Positions 15,322-64,000 of a stretch of DNA of 64,000 nucleotides are shown one piece after another. Position 1 is the stretch's first letter. Each line of letters starts with the position of its first letter. The DNA comes from Candidatus Bathyarchaeota archaeon. Its GTDB lineage: Archaea; Thermoproteota; Bathyarchaeia; Bathyarchaeales; SOJC01. A program made the translations under genes and the position numbers. The notes under the pieces were generated by a model. The model worked only from the letters and a program-made list of their open reading frames with translations, had not been told where the DNA came from and searched no databases. The stretch is from the NCBI GenBank assembly GCA_029882535.1, contig JAOUKM010000004.1, positions 1 through 64,000 on the forward strand. The letters run 5' to 3'.

Positions 15322-16155
15322 TCAGATATTAAACCACAGTAAAGCTATAAAGCTAGCAAGTAAACCGAATAATACAGAGAAAGGCAAACCCGGAAACATT
15401 CCTTTCTTCTCAACCATTTTAAAGGATAGAAACGAACCAAATAACACTCCACATGTTGCTGCAGCACAAGCTTTCCAGCCAAAACTCAAAAACACATGAC
15501 TCACTAGCATTGAATAAAATGTTAAATCGCCAAGCCCCACATAAATTTTCTTAAAGGAAAAACTGGCGCCTGGTAAATGCTCTAAGCCTATTTCCGCAAT
15601 CTTTCCAACGGGACCGTGGAACACAGCAATCACATCATAAACAGCTAATAACAACAAGATCAAAACCGCACTAAACGTGGGGATCGAGGCTCCCAACAAT
15701 GTTCCAGTAGACCCTCCAATTACAAGAACGATAATCTCATAAAACCTGCCTTTTCCCAGAAAAACCTCCAGAACAACAAATGATGTTGCAAAAAAGGCTA
15801 AAAACAAAATCATCGCTGAAGGAACGTCTATGTTCATAATCACGAAAACAAGTTCAGAATAAAGTATTACGAGAAGAAATGTGAGAACAGAAAACGTAAC
15901 GCCCATTAAAAAATGGATAAAACGATGCACACCAAACTTTAAAAGAAAATATATTATAGTGGCACCAAATCCTGCCGCAAGAACAAAAATTGTTGCGTTG
16001 AATAATGGACCATACCCTGTCTCGGGGAGCATTGTTACAGAGGTCAATTCTACTTTAGATTCTAAGATTAGAAACGCACACAAAATGCTAACAAGCAGGC
16101 TTGAAAGTATGGGAACGATATAGATGGGAGTCGCTCTAAACTTTTCTTCAGCCAT
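15322..16155 (-). CDS. Presenilin/signal-peptide-peptidase homologue (family A22)
   Basis: A 277-residue intramembrane aspartyl protease homologue with about nine hydrophobic segments. The two catalytic aspartates are in AVYD (Asp174) and GLGD (Asp210), and the third motif lies at 255-258 as PGLP in place of the usual PAL. Family members cleave transmembrane helices such as spent signal peptides. The first third is more divergent and includes a short external loop (LPETGYGP). Archaeal PSH proteins are normally near this length. It is monocistronic. Confidence 0.88.
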   Translation of the reverse strand: MAEEKFRATPIYIVPILSSLLVSILCAFLILESKVELTSVTMLPETGYGPLFNATIFVLAAGFGATIIYFLLKFGVHRFIHFLMGVTFSVLTFLLVILYSELVFVIMNIDVPSAMILFLAFFATSFVVLEVFLGKGRFYEIIVLVIGGSTGTLLGASIPTFSAVLILLLLAVYDVIAVFHGPVGKIAEIGLEHLPGASFSFKKIYVGLGDLTFYSMLVSHVFLSFGWKACAAATCGVLFGSFLSFKMVEKKGMFPGLPFSVLFGLLASFIALLWFNI

Positions 16156-23694: not shown

Positions 23695-25056
23695 TTAACC
23701 TGTCTCCTTGACTAGTTTGTCAATTAGTTTTGCAGTTTTTTTCATAATTATTTCTGAAGTTTTTCTGGTTTCTGCTTCTACTGTTATTCGCATTAAAGGT
23801 TCTGTTCCAGAAGGTCTTACTAGAAGCCAACCTTGTTTCAAGGCTAAACGAAATCCGTCTATTTTCGATTGTTCTTTAACATCGGAAAAGATTGCAGGTA
23901 AGGCTTCATACACCTTTTCCAATACAATGGGTTTGACAGAATTTGAGCATGCAACATTCTGCCTCAACAGTGGATATTGAGGTACTTTGGAAACAAAAGA
24001 GGACAAGTTTTGGTTTGTTTCTTCTAGGGCTTTGAGGAGTAGGATTGATGAGAGGATGCCATCTGGGCAGTAATGGTAGTTTGGGTGTATCCATGCACCA
24101 CAGGGTTCGCCTCCGAAGGTTGCGCTGTGTTTTTTTATGGCTTCTGTGATGTTTACGTCGCCCACTTTTGTTCTAACAATTTTCCCACCCTCAGCCTCAA
24201 TCATTTTTTCGATGCACATTGAAGCTTCTACTTGTGTAACTATTGTCTTGTTTTTCCGCTGTTTTATCACATGAGCAGCGTAGGCGGCGAAAGTTTGGTC
24301 TAATGGTGTTATGCGTCCTTTTTCGTCTGTTGTTATCATTCTGTCTCCGTCTCCGTCATATGCTATTCCCAAGGCAGCCTCTAGTCTTCTTACCATGTTG
24401 CATAGTGGCTTGAGCGATTCTTCGTTGGGTTCGGAGTTTCTTCCTGGAAAGTGTCCGTTTGGCTGTGAATTAACGGCTATTAGGTTACAATTTAGCTCGC
24501 GAAATATTTGAGGTACAAGTTGGCTGGTGGCTCCGTTTCCGGAGTCTATGATTATTTTCCAAGGTTTTTTGAGTTTGACGTTTTTTGTTATCATTTCGAT
24601 GTATTGTTGGGTTTCGTTTATTGTGATGGTTTTGCCTATGTTTTGCCATGTTGCGAGTTTGAATTGTTTTTTGGTTATTGTTTTTTCTATTTGGTTTTGT
24701 TGTTTTTGGTTGTAGGCTGTTGTGTCGGGGTTGTAGAGTTTTATGCCGTTGTATTCTGGAGGGTTGTGGCTGGCGGTTACCATCACTCCTGCGTCGGCTT
24801 TTGTTTGTTTTGTTAAGTATGCTAGAACAGGTGTTGGAATCGTGCCTTGTTGTAAAGCGGTGGCGGCGCAGGCGGTTATGCCGGCTGTTAATGCGTGTTG
24901 TAGCATGGGGGAGGTTGTGCGTGTATCTTGGGCTGTGAGTATTGTTTTTGCTTTTGTGTGGGTGGCTAGGGCTTGGCCGATTTGGAGGGCGAGTTGTGGT
25001 GTTATGGTTTTGTTGGCTTTGCCTCTTATGCCGCTTGTTCCGAAGAGTTTTGTCAA
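23695..25056 (-). CDS. glmM: Phosphoglucosamine mutase
   Basis: A 453-residue alpha-D-phosphohexomutase. The catalytic serine is Ser96 in TASHNP, metal-binding DGDGDR lies in the middle, GGEPCGAWIHP is the sugar loop and RPSGTEPLMR the phosphate loop. It starts with TTG and is followed without a gap by the GlmU-like gene, so the pair converts GlcN-6-P towards UDP-GlcNAc. The 5' half is strikingly A/C-rich on the coding strand (many ACA, ACC, CAA, AAC codons), unlike the 3' half. Confidence 0.9.
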   Translation of the reverse strand: MTKLFGTSGIRGKANKTITPQLALQIGQALATHTKAKTILTAQDTRTTSPMLQHALTAGITACAATALQQGTIPTPVLAYLTKQTKADAGVMVTASHNPPEYNGIKLYNPDTTAYNQKQQNQIEKTITKKQFKLATWQNIGKTITINETQQYIEMITKNVKLKKPWKIIIDSGNGATSQLVPQIFRELNCNLIAVNSQPNGHFPGRNSEPNEESLKPLCNMVRRLEAALGIAYDGDGDRMITTDEKGRITPLDQTFAAYAAHVIKQRKNKTIVTQVEASMCIEKMIEAEGGKIVRTKVGDVNITEAIKKHSATFGGEPCGAWIHPNYHYCPDGILSSILLLKALEETNQNLSSFVSKVPQYPLLRQNVACSNSVKPIVLEKVYEALPAIFSDVKEQSKIDGFRLALKQGWLLVRPSGTEPLMRITVEAETRKTSEIIMKKTAKLIDKLVKETG

Positions 25057-25412
25057 AGGGGTTTCCCTGTTTCTTTTGGTGTTTGTTGTGGTTGTTTATA
25101 GTGTTTGTGTGTGTGGCGCTTAGATTAGGCTCTATACTGTATACTCCAAATTGGCGGCTAGTAGATCCTAATTGTGGCGAGGAGTTTGTTTTTTCTGTGA
25201 AAAACCTCTGCTTGTATGCCTTTGGAATATGGGTCTTTTTTCGCATATATTTCTGAGTATTAGGGAAGTTTTCTTTTGGCTATGTAAAGTTATGTAAGAA
25301 GTTGATGATTGGCAAATAAGCCAAGTCAATCTTGTGTTTTGGAAAGAAGGATAATTGAATTTAGAATTCTCGGGAGTAATTAGTCGTTTGATGTTTGCCA
25401 AAGCTTTATGAT
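25057..25412. other. Intergenic region upstream of glmM
   Basis: 356 bases without a convincing gene. On the minus strand ACTATAAAC (about 25094-25102) lies ~40 bases before the glmM TTG and is a plausible TATA box. The glmM-proximal part shares the unusual T/G-rich plus-strand composition of that gene's 5' half. An 82-codon minus-strand open frame (25168-25416) lacks recognisable features. No RNA fold stands out. Confidence 0.5.
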
Positions 25413-38238: not shown

Positions 38239-40962
38239 CTATCTCCATTTGAACACTTTTCGATTATAGAAAACCTCGGGTAGTATTAGGAAGCCTGACA
38301 TAGCAGTCACTACAACAAGGGCCCATTCAAGTGGATCATCCATCACCACAGTCCCAAATAGTCCAATGAATGGCACAAGAATTGTCAAGACTGCTGAACC
38401 TATGACGGCAATTAGCAAGAACTTATTTGAAAGGAACCCTACTTTGAAAGCGTTGTGTTTCTCAGATCGACAATTCCATACGACAAATAATTCTTGCAAT
38501 GTCGCCCGTGTAAACGCCATAGTTCTAGCCTGTGCCAACTTTAGCTCTGTCAAAGGTCCAGGAAGCATATAGTATTGCCAGTAGAATAAACCTCCAGTTA
38601 AGAGGAATTGCAGTGTAAAAGTGGCAATTATCGAGGCCAGTCTTCCATGTAACACTCCTTGTTTTGGATCTCGTGGGGGTCTTTGCATCACGTCTTTCTC
38701 TGGAGGATCCATCGTTAGTGCAAGGGCTGGCCCTCCATCGGTAACTAGGTTTAGCCATAGAATCATACCTGCAGTTAGAGGAAGCTCCAAGCCTAGCAAT
38801 GCAAAGGTTCCAATAAGCGCCAGTTCGTCGAAGTTGCATCTTAGTAAGAAAAAGGAGAATTTTCTTATGTTATCATAAATTGCACGCCCTCCTTCTACAG
38901 CGCTAACAATTGTGGCGAAGTTATCATCTGCAAGCACCATGTCTGCCGCTTCTTTGGTTACATCTGTGCCTGTTATGCCCATAGCAACGCCGATGTCTGC
39001 CTGTTTTAGCGCTGGGGCATCGTTGACACCGTCTCCAGTCATGGCGACGATTTCCCCTTTCTTCTTCAAGGCTTTTACTATTCGAAGCTTATGTTCAGGA
39101 GCAACTCTTGCGTAGACTCTTACGTCTTTAACAACCTTTTCAAAGTCTTCATCACTCATAGCATCTAGCTTAGTGCCTGTTAAAACCATATCATGAGGGT
39201 TGCCCTTGGTTATGCCTATTTCTTTGGCCACTGCCACAGCGGTGAGCTTGTGGTCACCAGTTATCATAACGGTCCTTATGCCTGCTTGTTGACACAATTT
39301 GTTAGCTTCTTTAGCTTCTTCCCTCGGGGGGTCAATCATTCCCACCAAGCCGACAAAAACTAGGTCGCTTTCTATACGCTTATTGGTCTCTTCCGCTTTA
39401 CTAAGTTCGCGAAAGTCTTCAAGCTCGACGTCAGTTAATTCTTTAAAAGCCACTCCAAGCACACGGAGCGCATCGCCCGCCATTTGCTCGTTTGTTTTTA
39501 AAATCTTCTGTTTTTCTCTTTTGGTTAGTTTTTTTGGTTCTCCGTTTTTGAAGATTTTTGTGCAGTGGTCTAGAATAACTTCAGGGGCGCCTTTCATGAA
39601 AGCCAACAATTTCTCTTCAGACATTTTGTGAACGGTTGTCATCCGTTTCCTTTCTGAAGTAAAGGGAATTTCATGCACACGCGGATATTTTTTCTCTAGC
39701 TTGTCTTTTGTCATTCCCGCTTTTGTCGCTGCGACGATTAACGCCCCTTCCGTTGTGTCACCAAGTATTTTTTCTCCGTCCTCCGCAGCTTTGGTGCAGA
39801 CTGCACTGGCGCCCAATAACAAATTCAGGTTTGCGTTTTCCTTTGCATCCATAGGTTTGTTTTTCAGCATAAATTGTCCCTTTGCCTCGTAGCCAACGCC
39901 GGTAACTTCAATGATTTTGTCGTTGGTGAAAATTTTACGGACGGTCATTTCACCTCTGGTTAGTGTTCCAGTTTTGTCGGAGCAAATGACTGTGGTGGCG
40001 CCTAAAGTTTCTGCAGATGCAAGTCGTCTAATTATTGCGTTGCGTTTTGCTAGTTCGCGGGCTCCTAAGGCTAGTGAAATTGTTACTACTGCGGGGAGTC
40101 CTTCTGGAACGGCTGACACTGCCAACGCAATTGCTGTTATGAAGTTCTCTACTAGTGTTCCAGGTCTCGCGGGGTCTAACATTTCTAGAACGAAAATTGC
40201 GACACATGCAAATACAATGATTATTCCTAACTTCTTTGCGAAGTTTTCCAATTTGAGCTTTAAAGGCGTTTCCTCTGCTTCAACAGATTGCACCATTTCA
40301 GCAATTTTTCCAAACTCAGTTTCCATACCTGTAGATGTTACTACAGCCTTCCCTCGGCCGTATGTTACATAAGTCGCCGTAAATATCATGTTTTTTCTAT
40401 CGGCTACAGGCGCATTTTCCTCAATGGTGCTAATTCTTTTCTCTACCTGTGTAGACTCGCCAGTTAAAACAGCTTCGTCGGTTCTCAGCTCTACAACTTC
40501 AACTAGTCTGCTGTCTGCGGGAACGCGGTCCCCAGACTCTAAAAGCAAAATGTCCCCAGGCACAACTTCTTTTGCGGGAACCATTACTTCTTTTCCATTT
40601 CTCATTAATCGGGCTTTTGGGGCAGTGAGTTTTCTCATGGCGTCCATTGCTTTTTCAGAGCGGTATTCTTGGACGAAGCCGACAACTGCGTTGAGAACTA
40701 CTATGGCGGCTATCGTTATGGCATCGGTGGCCTCTCCAACAGCAAGGGAGATAGCTGTTGCGATTAACAGCATAATCACGAAAATGTCTTTGAATTGGTT
40801 TAGAAAGATCTGGAATGCAGTGGTTCTTTTTGTCTCTTTGAGTTCGTTGAGTCCATACTTCTCTAAACGTTGCTTTACCTCTTCTTCTTTTAAACCAAGA
40901 GGGTCTGTTTGCAACTCCTCAAGTACTATCTCAATTGACTTAGAATGCCACGCTTTACTCAT
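38239..40962 (-). CDS. P2A-type calcium/cation-transporting ATPase
   Basis: A 907-residue P-type pump. TGES is at 167-170, PEGLP (ion-site helix M4) at 286-290, the phosphorylated Asp329 lies in DKTGTLT, and MTGDGVNDAP is the hinge motif. Ten membrane helices are arranged as usual, with an N-terminal cation-ATPase domain (LGLKEEEVKQRLEKYGLNEL). Resembles SERCA/PMR1-like bacterial pumps exporting Ca2+ or Mn2+. The coding strand has its own promoter region at 40963-41100. Confidence 0.9.
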   Translation of the reverse strand: MSKAWHSKSIEIVLEELQTDPLGLKEEEVKQRLEKYGLNELKETKRTTAFQIFLNQFKDIFVIMLLIATAISLAVGEATDAITIAAIVVLNAVVGFVQEYRSEKAMDAMRKLTAPKARLMRNGKEVMVPAKEVVPGDILLLESGDRVPADSRLVEVVELRTDEAVLTGESTQVEKRISTIEENAPVADRKNMIFTATYVTYGRGKAVVTSTGMETEFGKIAEMVQSVEAEETPLKLKLENFAKKLGIIIVFACVAIFVLEMLDPARPGTLVENFITAIALAVSAVPEGLPAVVTISLALGARELAKRNAIIRRLASAETLGATTVICSDKTGTLTRGEMTVRKIFTNDKIIEVTGVGYEAKGQFMLKNKPMDAKENANLNLLLGASAVCTKAAEDGEKILGDTTEGALIVAATKAGMTKDKLEKKYPRVHEIPFTSERKRMTTVHKMSEEKLLAFMKGAPEVILDHCTKIFKNGEPKKLTKREKQKILKTNEQMAGDALRVLGVAFKELTDVELEDFRELSKAEETNKRIESDLVFVGLVGMIDPPREEAKEANKLCQQAGIRTVMITGDHKLTAVAVAKEIGITKGNPHDMVLTGTKLDAMSDEDFEKVVKDVRVYARVAPEHKLRIVKALKKKGEIVAMTGDGVNDAPALKQADIGVAMGITGTDVTKEAADMVLADDNFATIVSAVEGGRAIYDNIRKFSFFLLRCNFDELALIGTFALLGLELPLTAGMILWLNLVTDGGPALALTMDPPEKDVMQRPPRDPKQGVLHGRLASIIATFTLQFLLTGGLFYWQYYMLPGPLTELKLAQARTMAFTRATLQELFVVWNCRSEKHNAFKVGFLSNKFLLIAVIGSAVLTILVPFIGLFGTVVMDDPLEWALVVVTAMSGFLILPEVFYNRKVFKWR

Positions 40963-63530: not shown

Positions 63531-64000
63531 TTAAATGTTGGCGTAGATATGGTTGCTTGAATATCGTCCAGTATCCATTTCGTTTTCGATTTCTCGCAGC
63601 AAAAGAATTCGCTTAAAAGTTGCAGGATGCGTTGAAAACCACATGTTGATAGCTGTCCACGTTGATTTAGCTTCTCTTTCCATGGCTATCTGCAGTTCTC
63701 TCTCATCTAAGACACCGTCCCGATCAAGGTCGTAAACATCTTTTCGCTTAATTATGCCTTGGCACTCCTGCTTTGCCATCGCGGGATCACCTATGTAGAA
63801 AGTTCTTGCGCCCGTTGTTGGTTTCGGCGAGAGTGAGAGCCCATAGGTGATTTTGGATAATGCACTCTGTAGATTTCTTGGCTGACTGGTTATGTAGGCG
63901 GAGTAGGCGTCAGCGTAATGTTCACGGTTTCTGCTTAAGCCCATTACACACAGAAGCGTAACTATGTAGACCACGTATGATATTAAGGCGACAATAAAAA
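63531..64000 (-). CDS. M48 metallopeptidase with EF-hand loop (5' partial)
   Basis: The frame is open to base 64000; the start and zinc-binding HEXXH are off-window. Visible: the end of a hydrophobic helix (ALISYVVYIVTLL), the M48 segment REHYADAYSAYIT with the third zinc ligand, and the conserved QSALSKITYGL. A perfect 12-residue EF-hand loop DLDRDGVLDERE (63696-63731) follows, then the usual WFSTHPATFKRILLL. HtpX-like membrane proteases turn over damaged membrane proteins. The calcium-type loop is an addition not usual in the family. Confidence 0.8.
   Translation of the reverse strand, partial: FIVALISYVVYIVTLLCVMGLSRNREHYADAYSAYITSQPRNLQSALSKITYGLSLSPKPTTGARTFYIGDPAMAKQECQGIIKRKDVYDLDRDGVLDERELQIAMEREAKSTWTAINMWFSTHPATFKRILLLREIENEMDTGRYSSNHIYANI

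Follow-up and report, generated by a model that had tools for sequence, protein, structure and literature searches.

The M48 proteases (HtpX, Ste24/ZMPSTE24 and OMA1) police membrane proteins in organisms from bacteria to humans. Within this family, the available text on the Escherichia coli member BepA (PMC7950410) describes an HPX4R motif, conserved across PF01435, that acts as a plug: its histidine is the fourth zinc ligand, the plug occupies the substrate site and has to move, and tethering it blocks function. The word "calcium" does not occur in the main text of that paper. Calcium sites built on the Dx[DN]xDG motif are the subject of Rigden et al. 2011; according to the accessible part of that study (PMC3123361), the motifs known in 2011 were strongly biased towards the periplasm, the surface or secretion and were rather rare in archaea, with EF-hands among the few exceptions to the extracytoplasmic bias. 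Our literature search, mostly of open-access papers and read by title and start of abstract, returned no EF-hand in HtpX, M48, Ste24 or a Bathyarchaeota protease, and in the accessible text of PMC9258230 the sole mention of an EF-hand sits in the reference list.

Here we describe an M48 protease from an uncultured Candidatus Bathyarchaeota archaeon with a canonical EF-hand loop. The conservation of this EF-hand-type loop suggests that calcium controls or stabilises the protease.

Results

An HtpX-like protease at the window edge

The stretch of DNA analysed (64,000 nucleotides, hereafter the window) ends on its right side inside a minus-strand gene for an M48 membrane protease of the HtpX/Ste24 type. 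Recovery of the full gene beyond the edge, a step proposed in the initial annotation, shows that it extends to contig position 64574; the whole gene (contig C4:63531-64574; L002:1444-2487, minus strand) encodes 347 aa from a TTG start. For structural comparison we used an AlphaFold2 model (mean pLDDT 79.8) of an ortholog, L035, which is approximately 80% identical to the window protease and has residue numbers lower by 2. The part of the frame within the window, whose translation includes ...KDVYDLDRDGVLDERELQIAMEREAKSTWTAINMWFSTHPATFKRI..., contains the following features:

63531..64000, minus strand: M48 protease, C-terminal 155 codons with stop (ORF reading; PF01435, E = 7.3e-35)
63921..63923, minus strand: codon of E218, the third zinc ligand, in REHYAD right after the last hydrophobic segment (invariant in 29/29 orthologs; role by homology with BepA E201, available text of PMC7950410)
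63732..63785, minus strand: entering (E-like) helix, residues 264-281, with the invariant Y281 last (helices of the L035 model; sequence kept in the loop-less family f19)
63696..63731, minus strand: EF-hand-type loop D282-E293, DLDRDGVLDERE (EF-hand consensus, ortholog conservation, profile matches)
63669..63704, minus strand: exiting (F-like) helix, residues about 291-302, ERELQIAMEREA, starting within the loop (helix 289-300 of the L035 model)
63609..63629, minus strand: HPX4R active-site plug H316-R322, HPATFKR (T315, H316, P317 and R322 invariant in 29 orthologs; plug as described in the available text of PMC7950410)

The protease scores 120.9 bits against the PF01435 profile (curated cut-off 20.3) and has the motifs HELGH (residues 137-141), E218 in REHYAD and HPATFKR (316-322), with H137, E138, H141, E218, H316, P317 and R322 invariant in all 29 orthologs. 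Zinc protease activity is predicted from the HEXXH motif, the glutamate ligand and the HPX4R plug. Eight NCBIfam HtpX models match the protein and none of them at its equivalog cut-off, the best scores being 200.6 of 341 bits (NF002669) and 158.4 of 275 (NF002322); since it falls below all eight, "HtpX-like", the label used in the initial annotation, suits the protein better than "HtpX". The solved folds closest to the L035 model are tied between 3cqb (HtpX; Z 13.9, 92 residues, 1.9 A) and 4aw6 (ZMPSTE24; Z 13.5, 221 residues, 4.2 A). The other M48 gene of this genome (P0002, L001) lacks the loop.

The loop sits between E218 and the plug, with E293 located 23 residues before H316. The L035 model predicts a helix-loop-helix at the site (helices 262-274, 276-279 and 289-300, pLDDT about 69-77), in which the exiting helix, with L294, A297, M298 and E299 invariant in the 29 orthologs, is directed along the chain to the plug; the plug region, including the stretch from helix to plug, has a pLDDT of 44-66 in the full model.

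A conserved EF-hand-type loop

The loop was first noticed as a perfect EF-hand loop, and this is borne out at exactly 63696-63731, with the consensus present in 29/29 orthologs. The PROSITE EF-hand pattern PS00018 was found in 12 of 20,000 shuffles of the protease sequence, and a stricter pattern of the D.[DN].[DN]G.[LIVM]...E type in 1 of 20,000. Among 62 non-overlapping ORFs of at least 100 aa in the window (18,358 aa), the strict pattern is matched by this loop only, and PS00018 by the loop and by one DGDGDR stretch elsewhere. The latter, DGDGDRMITTDE, lies in an ORF resembling a sugar phosphomutase (23698-25095, minus strand); DGDGDR is a metal site of that family, and the pattern has probably given a false positive here.

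To measure conservation, orthologs were chosen by full-length similarity with the loop ignored, in 61 genomes including the window's own. They are present in 29/61 genomes (E <= 2e-126; 58-86% identical, the window's own genome aside) and absent from 32/61, some of which are incomplete, and the gene is thus patchy; further full-length matches start near 1e-45. A second, partial copy in one genome (G011:C1:507943-508524; residues 1-196, 69% identity, in a 316-aa frame, with the EF-type arm outside the match) ranks between the two groups. PS00018 is found at the loop in each of the 29 orthologs (set A1) and in 67/67 sequences of set A3, which was drawn from a scan with two patterns, one of them the loop. 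Across the 29 orthologs, loop positions 1, 2, 5, 6, 7, 8, 9 and 12 are invariant, position 3 is D or N, and positions 4 and 11 vary. Invariance is thus found at 8/12 loop positions compared to 87/347 in the whole protein (hypergeometric P = 0.0024).

A broader view is given by 101 distinct sequences picked by an EF-type pattern, in which counts at the patterned positions are conditional on that choice. Here, position 3 is D in 97 and N in 4, position 5 D in 99 and N in 2, position 9 D in 93, S in 5 and N in 3, and position 12 is E in all 101, such that the substitutions at ligand positions in this pattern-selected set are ligand-compatible only. By contrast, position 4 can be K, R, H, N, Q, E or G, and position 11 is occupied by at least eight different residues. 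At invariant residues the codons differ, with six codons used for Leu 8 and four for Gly 6. In the entering helix, four residues before the loop, lysine is found in 95/101 sequences; canonical EF-hands have a hydrophobic residue at this place. The putative ligand positions are shown by these comparisons to be under strong purifying selection across orthologs. At the level of sequence, the EF-hand-type loop is more than a chance match, and its conservation is a stronger argument for this than the shuffling.

Profile searches point in the same direction. When a 22-row profile built from the final 99 residues was run against PDB sequences, 34 distinct ones matched at E <= 5; of these, 33 are EF-hand proteins by name and the remaining one is an ion channel. 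Calcineurin B (0.0016), Cdc31 (0.0035) and lanmodulin (0.007, fourth of 34) are among the better matches, and ALG-2, EFHD2, calbindin and centrin are also found. These E-values are weak and are sums over repeated EF-hands, with the majority of matches in few families; the best single stretches among the PDB matches listed have values of 0.16 (Cdc31) and 6.7 (calcineurin B). A control profile made from 10 loop-less f19 relatives gave 3 PDB matches, 0/3 of them EF-hand proteins. Pfam EF-hand_1 matches 65/67 orthologs at E <= 0.1 (best 2.7e-4), and in the window protease all Pfam EF-hand models stay below their curated cut-offs, EF-hand_1 scoring best with 15.4 of 25.4 bits. Genome-wide, the protease loop is the sole match of EF-hand_7 at E <= 1 (0.0755) and the best of three for EF-hand_5 (E 0.0146), where a second match on contig C5 is nearly tied (0.0207); the one frame examined for this contig C5 match held stops. 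EF-hands usually occur in pairs, and a search of the whole protease found one stretch per EF-hand model and no second EF-hand in the chain. A model of the isolated C-terminal part, of low confidence (mean pLDDT 70, pTM 0.51), gave 8 weak Foldseek matches, one of them calmodulin (E = 8, Z 2.8, 7.2 A).

Loop-less relatives and the history of the loop

The loop had been described as inserted into the protease. Alignment with M48 relatives, proposed at the same time as a way to define the insert, places the gap in the loop and keeps the flanking segments. The loop is indeed longer than in relatives, but there is no inserted domain, as relatives from ammonia oxidisers (family f19) keep both flanking helices. 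The spacing between DP motif and plug histidine is 53 residues here and 47 in f19 (two f19 rows measured); the paralog from the same genome, counted by hand, has 10 residues fewer. Since f19 keeps the flanks with 6 residues fewer, the arm is best viewed as a helix-loop-helix whose loop has grown or shrunk. The second half of the f19 loop (L145-L155), HISEDEVKKAM, is still EF-like, and six loop residues have been lost or were never there. An EF-hand loop is not a general feature of M48 proteases: among the paralog-type M48 rows of the phylum, the paralog from the same genome included, all 21 of the 21 listed are without it.

Whole-genome searches for the loop were made within the phylum. The C-terminal profile matches 57 of 398 genomes at E <= 1e-6, and 43 of these 57 belong to the window's class (E <= 3.7e-47). 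The loop is present in 30/30 loci of the profile search checked in this class; for further genomes of the class, L156 and L157 were read, six are rows of set A1, and G265, G271, G282, G314 and G362 stand outside the loop count. Three genomes of other classes have the loop (G118, G142 and G064), and it is absent from all 11 f19 matches, one of which is a fragment spanning the place. AmoA was found in 5/5 f19 genomes tested and in 0/3 of G118, G142 and G064; family f19 are ammonia oxidisers. A separate scan of named genomes, in which 80 of 167 loci were kept, returned mostly Candidatus Bathyarchaeota, and also Bathycorpusculum, Nitrososphaerota/Nitrososphaeria, Crenarchaeota and one Euryarchaeota, but gives no unbiased measure of conservation because the loop itself is one of its two patterns.

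Two trees were calculated with the C-terminal columns excluded, a quick one (53 rows) and a careful one (50 rows), including 17 of the 80 named loci. L109, L174, and L150 and L156 (fragments) were left out of both, and L157, L175 and L179 also out of the careful tree. On both trees, the loop label has to change 2 times, and a single gain at the base followed by loss in f19 fits this; the AU test does not reject a topology with all loop-bearers in one clade (p = 0.114). L142, L143 and L144 sit on long branches. The last of these (L144:862-1878, minus strand, in G064) is an early-branching M48 protein with the EF loop DLDRDGVLSEYE, which is entered by WD instead of YD, suggesting an early origin of the loop within the phylum.

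Gene neighbourhood

A calcium-type pump elsewhere in the window had been taken as a clue to calcium control of the protease:

38239-40962: calcium-type P-ATPase gene, 22.6 kb from the protease (PMR1-type pump model best)

This link was rejected. Besides the distance, the P-ATPase scores 721 of 798.3 bits against the PMR1-type calcium pump model, below the curated cut-off, and P-ATPase matches at E <= 1e-120 occur in 22/29 genomes with the loop-bearing protease versus 24/32 without it (the same 61 genomes), which shows no tendency of the two genes to co-occur. Neighbouring ORFs of at least 80 aa were clustered in 80 loci, many of which extend for under 5 kb to one side, making the counts lower bounds. 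The commonest cluster, upstream and on the same strand (PP-loop/asparagine-synthase-type by eye), is found in at least 28/80 loci, and the next ones in at least 24/80 (ThyX-like by eye) and at least 23/80. On these counts, no neighbour is constant and there is no fixed operon around the protease. Elsewhere in the window, a 277-aa multi-pass membrane protein (15322-16155, minus strand) has a GLGDL...FYSML stretch and no NCBIfam match at 1e-20; to judge by this motif, it is perhaps an archaeal relative of presenilin/signal-peptide peptidase.

Discussion

The loop very probably binds a metal, most likely Ca2+, and control of protease activity by Ca2+ is plausible. The ligands would be the side chains of D282, D284 and D286, the V288 carbonyl, a water on the side of D290, and E293 in bidentate fashion. 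The site is most likely cytosolic, since three K/R residues precede the first hydrophobic stretch and in the topology of HtpX the zinc site faces the cytosol. Bound Ca2+ would fix the angle between the two helices and with it the direction of the exiting helix towards the plug, and this angle would decide whether H316 is on the zinc (closed) or off it (open); Ca2+ would then be expected to be required for proteolysis or to raise it. We see the balance as even on the proposition that the plug arm is positioned by one Ca2+ site of the EF-hand type, which would thereby put H316 on the zinc or take it off. The least certain step is that the site works as a reversible switch rather than as a permanent lock. 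Taken as a whole, the reading of an old archaeal M48 subfamily switched by cytosolic Ca2+, in which a home-grown single EF-hand drives the HPX4R plug onto the zinc and away from it and the ammonia oxidisers dropped or never gained the switch, is put forward tentatively, as a possibility that we would not call probable.

The strongest alternative is a purely structural role, in which constitutively bound Ca2+ (or Mg2+) merely stabilises the helix-loop-helix arm and regulates nothing. A structural metal site would account for the same conservation, and a loop that hardly varies across a deep clade is in keeping with a structural need that does not change. There are precedents in the accessible part of PMC3123361, where homologues often differ by a short loop without the motif versus a longer Dx[DN]xDG loop, and where calcium serves folding in one archaeal subtilisin. 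On the other hand, the site lies close to the plug, which in BepA has to move for activity (available text of PMC7950410), and the ammonia-oxidiser branch keeps the flanks of the arm without the loop, which argues that the metal site is dispensable for building the arm. The Mg2+ version is further disfavoured by the invariant E at position 12, which in EF-loops favours Ca2+ over Mg2+. We regard the structural role as a serious possibility that nevertheless falls short of being probable.

Alternatively, the loop could have lost metal binding and be conserved because it touches the catalytic domain, the membrane or a partner. The conservation of positions 2, 7 and 10 as well and the sub-threshold Pfam score would be in line with this, but the substitutions follow the chemistry of Ca2+ ligands at each position and the C-terminal profile retrieves EF-hand proteins, making the contact role improbable. 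That the true ligand is another metal, e.g., Mn2+ or a lanthanide, is less probable still: lanmodulin scores relatively well among the PDB matches (E = 0.007) and the sequence is compatible with a lanthanide-type EF loop, but position 2 is Leu in 101/101 of the pattern-selected sequences, unlike lanmodulin, which has Pro there.

If Ca2+ does act on the protease, archaea would have a calcium-responsive enzyme that is conserved and probably cytosolic; if it acts as a switch, this would be, as far as known, the first calcium-gated M48 protease and a concrete output of calcium signals in archaea. More generally, a natural M48 protease with a loop of the metal-sensing type near the plug offers a handle on how the HPX4R plug opens.

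Compared with known systems, the protease shares with HtpX and Ste24 (ZMPSTE24) the HELGH motif, the glutamate ligand after the last hydrophobic segment, the HPX4R plug and the closest folds, but differs from them by the EF-hand-type loop in the arm from the glutamate to the plug. The conserved HPX4R plug is also common to BepA, which however is periplasmic and has a TPR domain. As in the Dx[DN]xDG calcium sites of Rigden et al. 2011 (PMC3123361, accessible part), the motif occupies a loop that has been lengthened between secondary-structure elements already there; the protease differs in that its EF loop is complete, with 12 residues and E12, and in its likely cytosolic location and wide distribution within one archaeal class. 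With canonical EF-hand proteins such as Cdc31/centrin and calcineurin B, the 12-residue loop and the start of the exiting helix align, but the protease has a single loop, set within an enzyme and with no partner EF-hand in the chain. The f19 members of the subfamily, from ammonia oxidisers, have the same flanking-helix sequence and the THP plug, with a loop that is 6 residues shorter and has no ligand set; as loop-less relatives with the flanks kept, they provide a natural control.
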